Origin: Candidatus Sulfopaludibacter sp. SbA3
GTDB taxonomy: Bacteria; Acidobacteriota; Terriglobia; 20CM-2-55-15
DNA: 36,098 nt
Direction: 5' to 3'
NCBI GenBank assembly: GCA_945865815.1
Contig: CAMBFR010000031.1
Coordinates: forward strand, 1-36,098
Made by a program: the position numbers and the translations under genes. Position 1 is the first letter of the stretch; each line of letters begins with the position of its first letter. Below are positions 1,987 to 8,160 of this stretch, one piece after another. The notes beneath the pieces were generated by a model, which was not told where the DNA came from, ran no database searches, and worked only from the letters and a program-made list of their open reading frames with translations.

Positions 1987-2229
1987 ATGAAACGCATGAT
2001 CGTGGCCGTCCTGCTGCTGATCGCCGTCCCAATGGTTTTGGCGCCGGCGTTCTCTCAGGCGAAAAAGACCGAAAAGACGGAGAAAGTAAAAGATCCTGTC
2101 TGCGGAATCATGGTCGAGAAGAATCCGGACCTCTCGGCTTCACACAAGGGTGAAACGTATTACTTCTGCTCCCGTGCCGACATGGACGAGTTCAGGAAGA
2201 ACCCGGACAAATACGCGAACAAGAAATAA
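1987..2229 (+). CDS. secreted YHS-domain protein
   Basis: This 80-residue protein starts with a clear signal peptide (hydrophobic residues 5-20, likely cut after 'PAFSQA'). After a Lys-rich linker it carries one YHS domain: 'DPVCGIMV' near residue 37, then 'GETYYFCS' and a final 'FRKNPDKY'. YHS domains occur in metal-handling proteins such as copper ATPases and in some oxygenases. The paired Cys residues suggest metal binding, but the metal cannot be read from the sequence. The start has a GGAGG site ten bases upstream. The MFS gene follows 27 bases later and may be co-transcribed. It is divergent from pfkA. Confidence 0.85.
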   Translation: MKRMIVAVLLLIAVPMVLAPAFSQAKKTEKTEKVKDPVCGIMVEKNPDLSASHKGETYYFCSRADMDEFRKNPDKYANKK

Positions 2230-3434: not shown

Positions 3435-3728
3435 CTATGAGGCAAGAGTCTTCTTTGCCGCGGTGAATGCAGACTCTTCGATCTCGACCCGTTCCCGCAC
3501 GATCCGCTCAACCCATTTGTCGACCCCACTCTCACGGTGGAGCTTAGCCAGAAAAGCTGCTCGCGCGGCTAGCGCCGCTGGAATTGATAGTGACATGGAT
3601 TTTGGCCGCTTAACTACCATGGCCTTTCCCCAGGCGGAGTCCTCATCAGCATGCTCAGTGACAAATCGGTCGACTTGGCCCTGAGTCAGTTTCGGCTTCA
3701 ACGACGGTCTTTTTTTGCGCTGCTTCAT
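3435..3728 (-). CDS. BrnA-like / ribbon-helix-helix antitoxin
   Basis: This 97-residue protein has a basic N-terminus ('MKQRKKRPSLKPKLTQ'). Its C-terminal half, 'MSLSIPAALAARAAFLAKL' followed by 'VDKWVERIVRERVE', resembles the beta-strand plus two helices of ribbon-helix-helix DNA-binding antitoxins. It would neutralise the neighbouring BrnT-like toxin and repress the pair's promoter. The ATG at 3728 overlaps the toxin stop as ATGA and was preferred to the GTG at 3737. The toxin-first order matches known BrnTA modules. The family call rests on the partner and on the RHH-like tail, not on a strong motif. Confidence 0.68.
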   Translation of the reverse strand: MKQRKKRPSLKPKLTQGQVDRFVTEHADEDSAWGKAMVVKRPKSMSLSIPAALAARAAFLAKLHRESGVDKWVERIVRERVEIEESAFTAAKKTLAS

Positions 3729-3976
3729 ATCGGCCACCCAGTGATGATTCGAACCACGTTATGTGGCTTGAGTTGAAAGATGATCTTCAGCTTCCTTCCG
3801 CCCAGTGTCCGGCCGAGCAATTGATGACGATCACGATACTTCTTATTCCGGCGAATCTGAAAGTCAGAAAAGAAGCACTCCACGGCTTCATCGAAGGTCA
3901 CGCCGTGTTCAGCGAGTTCGTCCCGCTCGAAGTCATACTCGAAGTCCGAAGGAGTAAAGCGATGCCAATCGACCAC
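3725..3976 (-). CDS. brnT: BrnT-family toxin
   Basis: This 83-residue protein follows the BrnT (DUF497) pattern: an acidic/aromatic start 'FEYDFERDELAEHGVTFDEA', then 'RNKKYRDRHQLLGRT', 'LKIIFQL' and the terminal 'VVRIITGW'. BrnT toxins are RelE-like ribonucleases that act on RNA in the cytoplasm; this function comes from the family. The GTG at 3976 is the only usable start, because an in-frame TGA lies two codons upstream. The antitoxin gene follows with a 4-base overlap. The pair sits in the opposite orientation to the MFS gene whose 3' end flanks it on both sides. Confidence 0.78.
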   Translation of the reverse strand: MVDWHRFTPSDFEYDFERDELAEHGVTFDEAVECFFSDFQIRRNKKYRDRHQLLGRTLGGRKLKIIFQLKPHNVVRIITGWPI

Positions 3977-4607: not shown

Positions 4608-5774
4608 ATGTTTGATCGGATACTCCGGATTCCGGCGTCCCAAAGTTTCTTCCTCTTCGGCGCGCGTGGCACGGGCAAGTCCACACTTCTATCCGCGCAG
4701 ATTCCCGCCGATCGAGCCATCTGGTTCGACTTGCTGGACCTGGATCTCGAGGCCGAATTCGACGTCCGGCCCATGGCTCTGATCGAGCGGCTGGAACCGG
4801 TGCGCGCCGATCGGCGCATCGAATGGATCGTCATTGACGAAGTTCAGAAAGCGCCCGCGCTCCTCGACGTGGTACAGAAGGAGATGGGCCGGCGCCGATT
4901 CCGGTTCGCCCTTTCCGGATCCAGCGCGCGCAAGCTCAAGCGCGGCGCCGCGAATCTGCTGGCAGGCCGCGCTCTGGAGCACCATTTGTTCCCTCTCACG
5001 CACGTCGAACTGGAGGACCGTTTCGATCTCGGTTTCGTTCTCCGTTGGGGGAGCATGCCCTCTGTCTTCACCATGGAGAATGAATCGGAACGGCAAGGCT
5101 ATCTTCGGACTTACGCCAATACGTACGTTAAAGAGGAGATTCAAGCCGGGCAACTGGTGCGGAAACTCGCGCCCTTTCGCGCTTTCCTCGACATTGCCGC
5201 CGACGCGTCCGGCCAGATCGTCAATTACAGCAAGATCGCACGCGCCGTCGGCAGCGACGCCGTTTCCGTGAAGAGCTATTTCGGCATTTTAGAAGACACG
5301 CTGCTGGGCTTTCATCTGCCCGCTTATGACCAGTCGCTCCGGGCGCGCCAAAGGCAGGCGCCCAAGTTCTATTTTTCTGACCTTGGAGTCCAGGCCGCCC
5401 TCCGGCGCCACCTCCATCTGGAGCTTGCCGAATCCACCTATGAGTTCGGCCGGCGATTCGAGCAATTTGTCGTCACGGAAATCTTCCGCCTGAATCACTA
5501 CAGAAAGGCGGACTATGCGCTCTCGTACCTGCGAACGAAGGATGACGCGGAGATCGATCTGATCGTAGAACGGCCCGGCGTCCCGACTTACCTGGTCGAG
5601 ATCAAATCGACGCGCCGCGTGAATGAAGACGACGTTCGAACCGTCGCGGCGTTTGCCGCCGATCTGCGTAAGTCCGTTCCGCTCTGCCTTTCCCGGGACG
5701 AAGTCAGCCGGACCATTCGAGGCGTCAAGTGCCTGCATTGGCGCAAGGGCATCGCTGAAATCGGCCTGGGATAA
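4608..5774 (+). CDS. AAA_14/DUF4143 ATP-binding protein
   Basis: This 388-residue protein has Walker A 'GARGTGKST' (18-26), Walker B 'IVIDE' (74-78) and the sensor-like 'FALSGSSARKLKRG' (about 98-111). A C-terminal DUF4143 half follows, ending in a nuclease-like fold segment with 'DDAEIDLIVERPG' and 'YLVEIKST', which resembles the D-(x)n-ExK core of PD-(D/E)XK nucleases. The length is normal for the family. These proteins are common in accessory DNA and their role is unknown; a link to mobile DNA or toxin-antitoxin biology has been suggested. It converges with the Cys-rich gene downstream: one base (5775) separates the two stop codons. Confidence 0.85.
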   Translation: MFDRILRIPASQSFFLFGARGTGKSTLLSAQIPADRAIWFDLLDLDLEAEFDVRPMALIERLEPVRADRRIEWIVIDEVQKAPALLDVVQKEMGRRRFRFALSGSSARKLKRGAANLLAGRALEHHLFPLTHVELEDRFDLGFVLRWGSMPSVFTMENESERQGYLRTYANTYVKEEIQAGQLVRKLAPFRAFLDIAADASGQIVNYSKIARAVGSDAVSVKSYFGILEDTLLGFHLPAYDQSLRARQRQAPKFYFSDLGVQAALRRHLHLELAESTYEFGRRFEQFVVTEIFRLNHYRKADYALSYLRTKDDAEIDLIVERPGVPTYLVEIKSTRRVNEDDVRTVAAFAADLRKSVPLCLSRDEVSRTIRGVKCLHWRKGIAEIGLG

Positions 5775-5775
5775 A

Positions 5776-6447
5776 CTAACCCTTCTTCGCAGTCTCAAAA
5801 AGGCGGGAGGCTCGTGTCGGATTGAACACACCGCAACTGCAGAATCGCGCCAGCGTTGTGGACGCCTGATCGGGCGTGCGTCTTCCCTGTTTCACCCACT
5901 CCACCAGCTTGCGCACGAGGTTGAAGGAAATCATTCCATGACCGCACATTGTGGAAAGCTCGAGCGTGTTGCGGTCGGCCATCCGGTCCGTCTGGCCGAA
6001 GAACCCGAGCGAGTATTCGACGCTGTGCCGCTCGAGTCCCGCACGGCGGGCACATTCCTGGGCCTTATCCAGAGCGCCGCTGATATTGATGGAAAGACCA
6101 AGATCCGCCGTCTTGAGTTCCTTGATGAAGGCGACGACGCTGTCCTGGTTATCAAAAACTGCCGCAACCGTGGTTGGACACGACACGCCGCTTTGAACGG
6201 CCTCGAAATTCGTGGTCTCATCGCGGCGCCAATGCACGGTCGGTTTCAGATCTTTGGAAGGCCTGTAGATGCAACCATGGCTCGCGTCGCCCAGGTTCAC
6301 CGGATTGTGCTTTTGCGCTATCTGAAGAAAGCGGCGCTCCTTTTCGACACAGTCCTTGTCGTTATGACCGCGGGCGGGTATCGCAAAAACGATGTAGTCG
6401 TCGCTGAAGCTTTCGGCGGATCCGTACCGGTGCAGTGTGTTGGTCAA
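5776..6447 (-). CDS. conserved Cys-rich protein of unknown function, coupled to a ferredoxin-like gene
   Basis: I do not recognise a named family in this 223-residue protein. It is rich in Cys set in short motifs: 'SHGCIYRP', 'SGVSCPTT', 'ECARRAG', 'STMCGHGMIS' and 'FCSCGVFNP'. This could mean metal, cluster or thiol chemistry. There is no signal peptide and no membrane segment. The start is taken as the TTG at 6447, which overlaps the stop of the ferredoxin-like gene as TTGA; an upstream extension in the same frame has shadow-like composition. The tight coupling suggests the two proteins work in one complex or reaction. Function unassigned. Confidence 0.66.
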   Translation of the reverse strand: MTNTLHRYGSAESFSDDYIVFAIPARGHNDKDCVEKERRFLQIAQKHNPVNLGDASHGCIYRPSKDLKPTVHWRRDETTNFEAVQSGVSCPTTVAAVFDNQDSVVAFIKELKTADLGLSINISGALDKAQECARRAGLERHSVEYSLGFFGQTDRMADRNTLELSTMCGHGMISFNLVRKLVEWVKQGRRTPDQASTTLARFCSCGVFNPTRASRLFETAKKG

Positions 6448-7241
6448 GAAGCGTGCCCCAATCCAAGGTTGGTCTTGCCGCGGACAAAGGAAAGACCTTC
6501 GTCTACCAGGACCGCATCCAAAGCGCTGGCGCCGTCCTGCTCGCACCGCGTGGAGACGCCTACCGCCACGACGGTGTCGAGAGTCTTCGAAACCTGATCG
6601 ACCTTTGCGAGAACGGCCGGCACATTACCAATGGATGTCTTGAACTCGACAATGGCCGAAAGAATCTTCTCGTTGAGGATGTCGTCGCGCAGCTTTCCGG
6701 CGGCCTTGTCGGTCATCATGTGTGTGACCGGATTGTTCGGCTCGAACGCGATACCGATCTTTGCGAGGGCCACCGTCATCTTCTCGATATCCCGGAACCG
6801 GACGCCGACCGTTGGGCGCCCGAATTCCACAACGTACCCGACCTCGCCGATACCCACTCGATTCGTCACATCGTTGGTCTTCACTTCTTCAGTGCCGCGG
6901 CCGTGAACCCCCGTGCTTTCATGCGTCACCTGCGGATCGCTGAAAGCGCGGCGCACGACGCGTGGCCAGGCGAGTTCATCCGGGGTAATAGCGGAAGTCG
7001 GACATACGTCCGGCTCTGGATCGAACCGCAGGCGGAAGAGCTTCAGAAAGGAACGAACACCGCGGACGAAACTGGGATTGAGTTTCTCCATGCTCATGCC
7101 GCGAAAACAGGCATAGCACTCGACGCATTCGTCCGAATTCACGGACGCCCGGTTCGTCGCCGCATCAATGGAAATGGCTCCCATTGGGCAAACAGGGACG
7201 CAGTTGCCGCACGCGACACACTTTCGTTCATCGATCTTCAT
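6444..7241 (-). CDS. ferredoxin-domain protein with long C-terminal region
   Basis: This 265-residue protein begins with a [4Fe-4S] motif, C8-x2-C11-x2-C14-x3-C18-P. A second set, C39-x2-C42-x2-C45, follows, and its fourth ligand appears to be the distant 'VCPTSAIT' (C80), so the second site carries a ~30-residue insertion. The remaining ~180 residues ('VGEVGYVVEFGRPTVGVR' and onward) look like a ligand-binding or regulatory domain that I cannot name. It lies in the cytoplasm and would carry electrons for its coupled Cys-rich partner, which is inference. It is divergent from the desaturase gene, with a dyad between them. No strong ribosome site precedes the ATG at 7241. Confidence 0.74.
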   Translation of the reverse strand: MKIDERKCVACGNCVPVCPMGAISIDAATNRASVNSDECVECYACFRGMSMEKLNPSFVRGVRSFLKLFRLRFDPEPDVCPTSAITPDELAWPRVVRRAFSDPQVTHESTGVHGRGTEEVKTNDVTNRVGIGEVGYVVEFGRPTVGVRFRDIEKMTVALAKIGIAFEPNNPVTHMMTDKAAGKLRDDILNEKILSAIVEFKTSIGNVPAVLAKVDQVSKTLDTVVAVGVSTRCEQDGASALDAVLVDEGLSFVRGKTNLGLGHAS

Positions 7242-7256
7242 AATAAAACACGGAGT

Positions 7257-7279
7257 TTAGCACATGGGTGTCGTGCTAA
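7257..7279. promoter_or_regulatory. dyad (possible operator) between divergent ferredoxin and desaturase genes
   Basis: TTAGCAC (7257-7263) and its exact reverse complement GTGCTAA (7273-7279) flank a 9-base spacer. The site lies midway in the 73-base gap between two divergent starts (7241 and 7315). A dimeric regulator could bind here and control both genes. This is sequence symmetry only; no known operator is recognised. Confidence 0.4.
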
Positions 7280-7314
7280 TATTTGCGCTTTTGCAGACCT
7301 AAGGAGGATACCTG

Positions 7315-8160
7315 ATGAGCAAATCGGCATTCGCCGAGAAACACCCGTGGACGCTCCCGTGGTGGAAAGCTGAAGGCGAAAATTTCTGGGTGTTGGTCTA
7401 CATCTTTACGATTCACATTCTGAGCCTCACAGGACTCGTGCTCTACACTCTGCCAGGTTGGCCTGTGTTTCTTTCTGCCATGTTCCTTGCCTGTCTGGGC
7501 GGACTGGGAACCACCGTTGGATATCACCGGGCGCTGGCGCATCGCGCCGTGAAACTGAATCCGGTCGTCGAACAGATTCTCATTCTGTTTGCCATCTTCA
7601 ATGGCTCCGGCGCGCCGAGCACCTGGATCGCGAACCATCGCAACCATCACGCAGCCGCAGATACGGTCGATGATGTCTCCAGCCCGCGTCATGGCGGATT
7701 CTGGTGGGCGCACCTTCGCTGGTTGTATCAGTGGGAACCGTCGAGCATGCAGAAGTGGTGCCCGGACATGATGCAGAGCAAATACACGTTCTGGGCGAAG
7801 ATCCAGATCCCGATCGTAGCGTTCTCATTGGTATTTGGTTACTTCATCTTCGGCTGGGCAGGCCTGTTGTGGCTCGGCCCGATGCGAATGCTGTACTGCC
7901 TGCACCTTCAGTGTTTCGTCAACAGCCTGCTCCATTTGAAGCCAGGCCTGCCGGAGGGCGTCGATTCCAGCCAGAACATCTGGTGGCTGGGTCCGCTGCA
8001 GGTGACGGCATGGGGCGAGAACTGGCACGGCAACCACCACGCATACCCGGCGTCCGCAAAATTCAGCCGTCATTGGTGGCAAATCGACATCGGGTGGTAT
8101 GTGATTCGAGGATTGAGTGCGGTCGGCCTGGCGTCGAACATCCGATTGCATCCGCGTTAG
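7315..8160 (+). CDS. membrane fatty-acid (acyl-CoA/acyl-lipid delta-9 type) desaturase
   Basis: This 281-residue integral membrane protein puts a double bond into fatty acyl chains with a diiron centre and O2. All three histidine boxes are present: HRALAH (71-76), HRNHH (108-112) and HGNHH (238-242, in 'GENWHGNHHAYP'). Hydrophobic helices lie around 25-65, 85-97 and 165-200. The length is typical of bacterial delta-9 enzymes. The start has a strong AAGGAGG site. The final TAG is also the first three bases of an inverted REP pair. Electron supply is not encoded in this gene; the divergent ferredoxin-like gene is a tempting but unproven partner. Confidence 0.9.
   Translation: MSKSAFAEKHPWTLPWWKAEGENFWVLVYIFTIHILSLTGLVLYTLPGWPVFLSAMFLACLGGLGTTVGYHRALAHRAVKLNPVVEQILILFAIFNGSGAPSTWIANHRNHHAAADTVDDVSSPRHGGFWWAHLRWLYQWEPSSMQKWCPDMMQSKYTFWAKIQIPIVAFSLVFGYFIFGWAGLLWLGPMRMLYCLHLQCFVNSLLHLKPGLPEGVDSSQNIWWLGPLQVTAWGENWHGNHHAYPASAKFSRHWWQIDIGWYVIRGLSAVGLASNIRLHPR

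Follow-up and report, generated by a model that had tools for sequence, protein, structure and literature searches.

An uncharacterised ferredoxin-like protein and its cysteine-rich partner in Acidobacteria and Rokubacteria: a possible two-subunit iron-sulfur oxidoreductase for organic acids

AprB, the beta subunit of adenylylsulfate reductase, contains a ferredoxin domain with extra loops and acts as the electron-transfer subunit of a two-subunit enzyme, in which the other subunit, AprA, is a flavoprotein. The product of the genes iorA and iorB, indolepyruvate oxidoreductase (IorAB), needs a ferredoxin as acceptor, as is established from its biochemistry. Iron-sulfur centres held by three Cys and one His are known from the mitoNEET/CDGSH proteins. 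The locus described here comes from the Acidobacteria and recurs in the Rokubacteria, both of which abound in soil and groundwater and are poorly cultured. A conserved but unnamed iron-sulfur pair tied to organic-acid uptake would mark a step of carbon use in these organisms that annotation has missed, and its genomic context narrows the search for a substrate to a testable class.

The window, i.e. the whole stretch of DNA that was analysed, is 36,098 nucleotides long and holds the genes of a ferredoxin-like protein (P1) and a partner protein (P2) (Table 1). Both are real genes, conserved beyond chance, and their products, probable iron-sulfur proteins, together form an uncharacterised family that is not any named enzyme. 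No literature on this pair was found, which is weak evidence given that subscription journals were thinly covered.

Architecture of the gene pair

A sequence-only reading had proposed a dedicated redox pair at 5776-7241, with the two genes overlapping by TTGA. The coordinates are correct, and the start of P2 does overlap the stop of P1 by these four letters; both genes lie on the minus strand, which had been left out of that reading. The dN/dS ratios against the relatives at loci L022 and L023 were 0.054 and 0.045 for P1, and 0.030 and 0.065 for P2. Scanning one genome per species yielded 168 P2 relatives, of which 80 were retained as loci. The 4-nt overlap recurs in 52 of the 78 loci with both genes complete, and P1 and P2 are at most 20 nt apart in 72 of the 78 measured pairs. 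Over 78 loci, the distances of P1 and P2 are correlated with r = 0.918, a value that also carries the species tree.

Table 1 Genes and domains of the P1-P2 pair in the window
Feature	Position	Strand	Remark
P1, ferredoxin-like protein	6444..7241	-	ATG at 7241, TGA ends at 6444, 265 aa
2[4Fe-4S] ferredoxin domain, P1 residues 1-88	6978..7241	-	model aligned to 1fdn
Alpha/beta domain, PII/ACT-like arrangement, P1 residues 131-232	6546..6851	-	preceded by GRGTEEVKTND (low model confidence)
P2, partner protein	5776..6447	-	TTG start, 223 aa
Alpha/beta domain, ferredoxin/PII-like arrangement, P2 residues 15-126	6070..6405	-	structural alignment of model
Helical Cys module TMCGHGM...FCSCGxxNPxRA, P2 residues 155-223	5776..5985	-	C168, H170, C203, C205 invariant

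The ferredoxin part of P1 is ordinary. Its first site is regular (C8-x2-C11-x2-C14-x3-C18-P), and its second, C39-x2-C42-x2-C45, finds its fourth Cys in C80, 35 residues after the third, just as had been read from the letters (one regular [4Fe-4S] site and another with its fourth Cys over 30 residues away). P1 scored 42.9 bits with Pfam Fer4 (PF00037, cut-off 21.1) and 29.8 bits with PF13187 (cut-off 27), and related dicluster Pfam models also match residues 1-47; both by profile and by its two CxxCxxC...C sets it has a 2[4Fe-4S] ferredoxin domain. In the structural alignment, residues 1-88 of the P1 model superpose on the clostridial ferredoxin 1fdn with a Z-score of 7.3 and an rmsd of 1.5 over 54 residues; C80 lies within the range aligned and so fits the role of the displaced fourth ligand. 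The nine Cys of P1, eight of them cluster Cys and the ninth C233, are present in every one of 79 sequences. C233 is not universal, because it is missing from P1 of two divergent Rokubacterial pairs.

The remainder of P1 (about residues 85-265) had been called a large unknown domain, and no consistent Pfam match was indeed found for it among 27 members. It has 59 invariant columns in 27 sequences, and the invariant stretch GRGTEEVKTND precedes its alpha/beta domain. The NCBIfam matches shown for P1 fall on its ferredoxin part only, all of them far below cut-off. A resemblance to 6-hydroxynicotinate reductase, prompted by the KTND motif, was withdrawn, as the sequence of that enzyme appears not to fit.

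P2 had been credited with five Cys motifs, including MCGHGMIS and FCSCG. The count does not stand: seven Cys occur in six places (33, 59, 90, 132, 168 and 203/205), most of them unconserved, and only the places at MCGHG and FCSCG are conserved in all. Each of 86 sequences has C168, C203 and C205, and C132 is present in 78 of the 86, in contrast to C33 (12/86), C59 (2/86) and C90 (4/86). The expected conservation of the Cys residues thus holds throughout P1 and, in P2, for C168, C203 and C205, a set joined by H170, which all of the 77 sequences compared share. The alignment of P2 has little depth (Neff 2.1). In the two divergent Rokubacterial pairs, which are 38-39% (P1) and 37-40% (P2) identical to those of the window, MCGHGM and CxCG are kept. 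Judged from these residues, C168, H170, C203 and C205 (CxH ... CxC) are likely to form a candidate 3-Cys/1-His cluster site.

Profile searches assigned neither protein to a known enzyme. P2 had no Pfam match above cut-off, a single NCBIfam match, at 15.8 bits where the cut-off is 223, no PDB sequence match by phmmer or profile, and no match in PHROGs or PADLOC. Matches of P2 relatives to DEP (13/77, best E 0.0075) and FeoC (2/77, best E 0.013) were judged to reflect chance or a common helical shape. The P1 C-terminal domain, all of P2 and the combination of the two proteins are unnamed in the libraries searched.

The AlphaFold2 models have a mean pLDDT of 82.8 (P1) and 87.6 (P2), with residues 116-125 of P1 under 50. 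Foldseek found no match for either model in the PDB at E ≤ 0.001, and no catalytic fold was recognised in P1 or P2 by this search or by structural alignment of the models. Residues 131-232 of P1 align with PII-type proteins at Z about 6-6.6, at the level of the fold arrangement only, and residues 15-126 of P2 align at Z 6-8 with proteins of the ferredoxin fold and with SbtB/PII-like ones, likewise a common arrangement only; the best rows of the latter are a designed protein (Z 8.0) and SbtB (about 7). With regard to membership among the PII/ACT-like domains, the Z-scores of 6-8 for P1 and P2 are thus at the level typical of a common arrangement, and the alpha/beta domains of P1 and P2 showed no homology to each other by hhalign (probability 0.1). 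The P2 fold table contained no known 3Cys-1His protein or Fe-S dehydratase among its rows, which barely cover the C-terminal helices and exclude nothing.

Distribution and gene neighbours

Among 200 genomes of the window's class, the P1 C-terminal domain was found in 26 and the P2 module in 26, with 25 genomes common to both. The sole P1-only genome (G007) has its P2 cut off by the contig end. In the sole module-only genome (G035), in which no P1 was found, a free-standing frame of 88 aa (L107:1480-1743, minus strand) carries a P2-type module with all three Cys and the His, and is plausibly a small protein. In a sample of 199 genomes of the phylum, the full P2 profile matches two, namely the window's own genome and one fragment. 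In a second phylum, that of G235 (Rokubacteria), P1 is present in 21 of 95 genomes and P2 in 22, these being the same 21 (the copy in G312 is cut at a contig end) and G323 with a fused remnant. P2 was also found in two of the four genomes of the small phylum of G330. The 80 loci are nearly all labelled Acidobacteria or Bryobacterales; two are labelled Rokubacteria/Rokuibacteriota (L026, L100) and two Acidimicrobiia (L027, L069). Two Rokubacterial genomes have two pairs in tandem (L125, L126). The pair is thus patchy in its distribution but unbroken. It is inherited together in the class sample and in the second phylum, and gene adjacency and co-occurrence both bear out the dedicated pair first proposed. 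Searches of plasmids by tblastn with P1, P2 and a divergent P2 gave no match, and none of 39 pattern matches in viral contigs was a relative.

Three further candidates for a stand-alone module were set aside. The first, G452:C2 (L202), is without CGHG. In G323 (L203:3324-3569), one frame joins the first Cys motif of P1 to the MCGHGM module of P2, as if nearly the whole pair had been lost in frame or the assembly had joined the two ends; it is a remnant of a P1-P2 fusion. The third, at about 7845-7955 (plus strand) of L059, is a partial duplication of the tail, in which the last codons of P2 are copied downstream of an intact pair.

In the window's own genome, the pair is flanked by a divergent fatty acid desaturase gene and a convergent gene for a DUF4143 ATPase, and none of the organic-acid neighbours of its relatives lies beside it; with these two neighbours, an organic-acid role has no local support in the window. 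P1 and the desaturase gene have a 73-bp divergent intergenic stretch (7242-7314) in common, and a desaturase gene also adjoins the pair in L022, L023 and L024 (3/80 loci). In PADLOC, the AAA_14/DUF4143 ATPase (4608-5774, plus strand) strongly matches PDC-S01, a candidate defence family (207 bits). Further along are a gene for a BrnT-like RNase toxin (3725-3976, minus strand; PF04365, 32.0 bits, just under the cut-off of 34.5), a small gene overlapping it (region 3435-3976, minus strand) that has no Pfam match and is probably its antitoxin, and a gene for a small, exported-looking YHS-domain protein (1987-2229, plus strand; 53.1 bits).

Neighbours in the relatives were identified by marker searches and a gene caller based on G+C position, which can misplace starts; the markers were picked after inspection of the loci, and the counts are raw ones that include any background occurrence of such genes beside random genes. 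The gene of an MFS transporter ends directly upstream of P1 in 42 of the 69 loci (out of 80) whose sequence includes the P1 start with 400 nt or more ahead of it. Among 44 MFS genes whose spacing was measured, 21 overlap with P1, and 42 are no more than 60 nt away from it. For the example tested, the best match was TIGR00893, the model of the D-galactonate transporter, at 279 bits and so under the cut-off of 395. An amidohydrolase-superfamily gene directly follows P2 in 19 of 71 loci; its best NCBIfam match is Xaa-Pro dipeptidase, below cut-off, and on visual inspection its start resembles a signal peptide.

Several neighbours belong to the chemistry of 2-oxo and 2-hydroxy acids. In four loci the MFS gene is preceded, in the same orientation, by a gene for a YdiJ-like FAD/Fe-S 2-hydroxyacid dehydrogenase, and L081 has a shorter match of this kind directly before P1; the score with the YdiJ model NF049975 was 624 bits (cut-off 1350). 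At L199 the order is YdiJ-MFS-P1-P2-FAD oxidase, and at L193 an FMN-dependent 2-hydroxyacid dehydrogenase (lactate-dehydrogenase-like) lies behind P2. The genes of a 4-hydroxy-2-oxovalerate aldolase and an acetaldehyde dehydrogenase, both over cut-off, stand beside MFS-P1-P2-amidohydrolase at L200.

In Rokubacteria, P2 is followed in four of 11 loci by a ThDP enzyme whose nearest match is benzoylformate decarboxylase (444 bits, with a cut-off of 493), and in three of 11 by the TRAP component DctP. The gene iorA lies directly before P1 in four Rokubacterial genomes (G235, G301, G311, G326); with the IOR alpha model, that of G311 reached 565 bits (cut-off 650.9), and the gene of G326 was recognised from a tail that matches. 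The position of iorB directly after P2 was checked in G235 and G301. At L127 (8569-13590, minus strand), genes for an Fe-S protein, a CO-dehydrogenase/prismane-family protein and an FAD/NAD oxidoreductase are followed by a divergent P1-P2 and a TRAP transporter. Tripartite tricarboxylate-type (TTT) transporters occur near the pair in L125, L126, L128 and L132, the last of which also has a relative of sugar-acid dehydratases (MR_MLE) as neighbour. Pfam confirmed TctA, TctB, TctC, DctP and DctM in the examples tested. The 29 loci without markers were each read individually, and several had no telling neighbour. Overall, the gene neighbours of the relatives suggest a substrate of the 2-oxo/2-hydroxy acid kind.

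Possible function of the pair

The theme that recurs at these loci is the import of organic acids together with 2-oxo/2-hydroxy acid chemistry, and the pair is therefore probably a two-part enzyme for such an acid. The sequences themselves show how the genes are paired, which residues are invariant, that P1 has a ferredoxin domain and what the neighbours are; from this we tentatively infer that P1-P2 is an undescribed two-subunit iron-sulfur oxidoreductase acting on an organic acid that the cell takes up, in the most likely case a 2-hydroxy or 2-oxo acid. The acid would be imported by the linked transporter (MFS, TRAP or TTT). The two [4Fe-4S] clusters of P1 would pass electrons between the ferredoxin pool of the cell and P2, whose CGHG/CxCG module, with three Cys and one His, may hold a catalytic or gateway cluster. 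The acid would bind at an interface of the two subunits that is predicted to be lined by the invariant GRGTEEVKTND of P1 and by the TNTLHR start and the RHS stretch of P2. The proposed chain would thus lead from the ferredoxin pool through the P1 clusters and the three-Cys/one-His centre of P2 to the acid, and electrons may run along it either way. Where the transporter is the sole attachment, the pair must itself be the enzyme, or serve one elsewhere.

Several points speak against the oxidoreductase: neither protein has a recognised catalytic fold, organic-acid neighbours are missing beside the pair in the window's own genome, some loci have no telling neighbour, and the P2 alignment is of little depth. 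The neighbouring enzymes also differ by locus, which fits a general electron carrier as well. P1-P2 could then be a dedicated electron-transfer adaptor, with P1 as the ferredoxin and P2 as a docking or sensing protein, that serves different 2-oxo/2-hydroxy acid oxidoreductases according to lineage. The pair would be the constant and its partner the variable: an indolepyruvate oxidoreductase, a CO-dehydrogenase-family protein with an FAD/NAD flavoprotein, a YdiJ-like protein, an FMN dehydrogenase or a ThDP enzyme. The nesting of the pair between iorA and iorB suits such a role, as do the PII/ACT-like arrangements of both proteins, at the level of a common fold. However, in most acidobacterial loci (the 42 of 69 mentioned above) the transporter is the sole constant attachment, which leaves the pair as the natural candidate enzyme, and the P1 C-terminal domain is conserved to a degree that would be surprising in a carrier. 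As different loci have different partner enzymes, the adaptor follows closely on the oxidoreductase, although we consider it somewhat unlikely.

Another function would involve no redox chemistry. Aconitase-type or serine dehydratases have an open-sided cluster held by three Cys, and a P2 cluster of this type, for which three invariant Cys are available, could act as a Lewis acid on a hydroxy acid in a hydro-lyase or isomerase reaction, the P1 clusters serving only to maintain or repair it. The sugar-acid dehydratase relative at L132 and the 4-hydroxy-2-oxo acid aldolase at L200 would be fitting neighbours. On the other hand, P2 has no profile match to such dehydratases and no Foldseek match at the threshold used, a fourth ligand is suggested by the invariant His that adjoins the first Cys, and a two-cluster ferredoxin subunit would be unusual for such an enzyme, all of which makes this function improbable. 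That P2 is a Cys-based racemase or epimerase is very hard to believe: MCGHGM, just before a helix in the P2 model, resembles the proline racemase motif MCGHG(T), but this short motif is the only likeness, Pfam Pro_racemase (PF05544) matches none of 77 P2 members at E ≤ 5, P2 has CxCG as its second motif, and a racemase would have no use for a ferredoxin partner.

A bolder form of the oxidoreductase proposal is that P1-P2 represents a new class of two-subunit enzymes, driven by ferredoxin and acting on 2-oxo/2-hydroxy acids, with a new Fe-S site as the active centre. This site, CGHG...CxCG with three Cys and one His, would reside in a small helical domain that also occurs free-standing. We regard this claim as rather doubtful.

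Comparison with known systems

Clostridial-type 2[4Fe-4S] ferredoxins (Fer4) are like residues 1-88 of P1, which contain both Cys sets. Unlike them, P1 has an insertion that displaces the fourth Cys of the second site, a conserved C-terminal domain of 180 residues and an obligate partner gene. With regard to HgcB, the ferredoxin of mercury methylation, this family gave the best NCBIfam E-value of P1, on the ferredoxin part; the score with NF040864 was 32.9 bits against a cut-off of 99 and covered residues 2-52 only.

The genes of P1 and P2 lie inside or behind the iorA-iorB set in some Rokubacteria. By sequence, however, the two proteins are not IOR subunits: the ThDP-binding and POR domains are found in the neighbours, P1 matches only Fer4-type families and P2 none, and most P1-P2 loci have no adjoining IOR. 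In the case of the mitoNEET/CDGSH proteins, P2 has an equal count of conserved possible ligands, but differs in their order and spacing (CxH ... CxC), and no profile of CDGSH or other 3Cys-1His proteins matched any of 77 P2 members at E ≤ 5. As to AprB, the P1 model aligns to 1jnr_B with a Z-score of 6.6 and an rmsd of 3.0 over 65 residues. P1 reached 20.1 bits with TIGR02060, against a cut-off of 135.65, and P2, unlike AprA, matches no flavoprotein profile.
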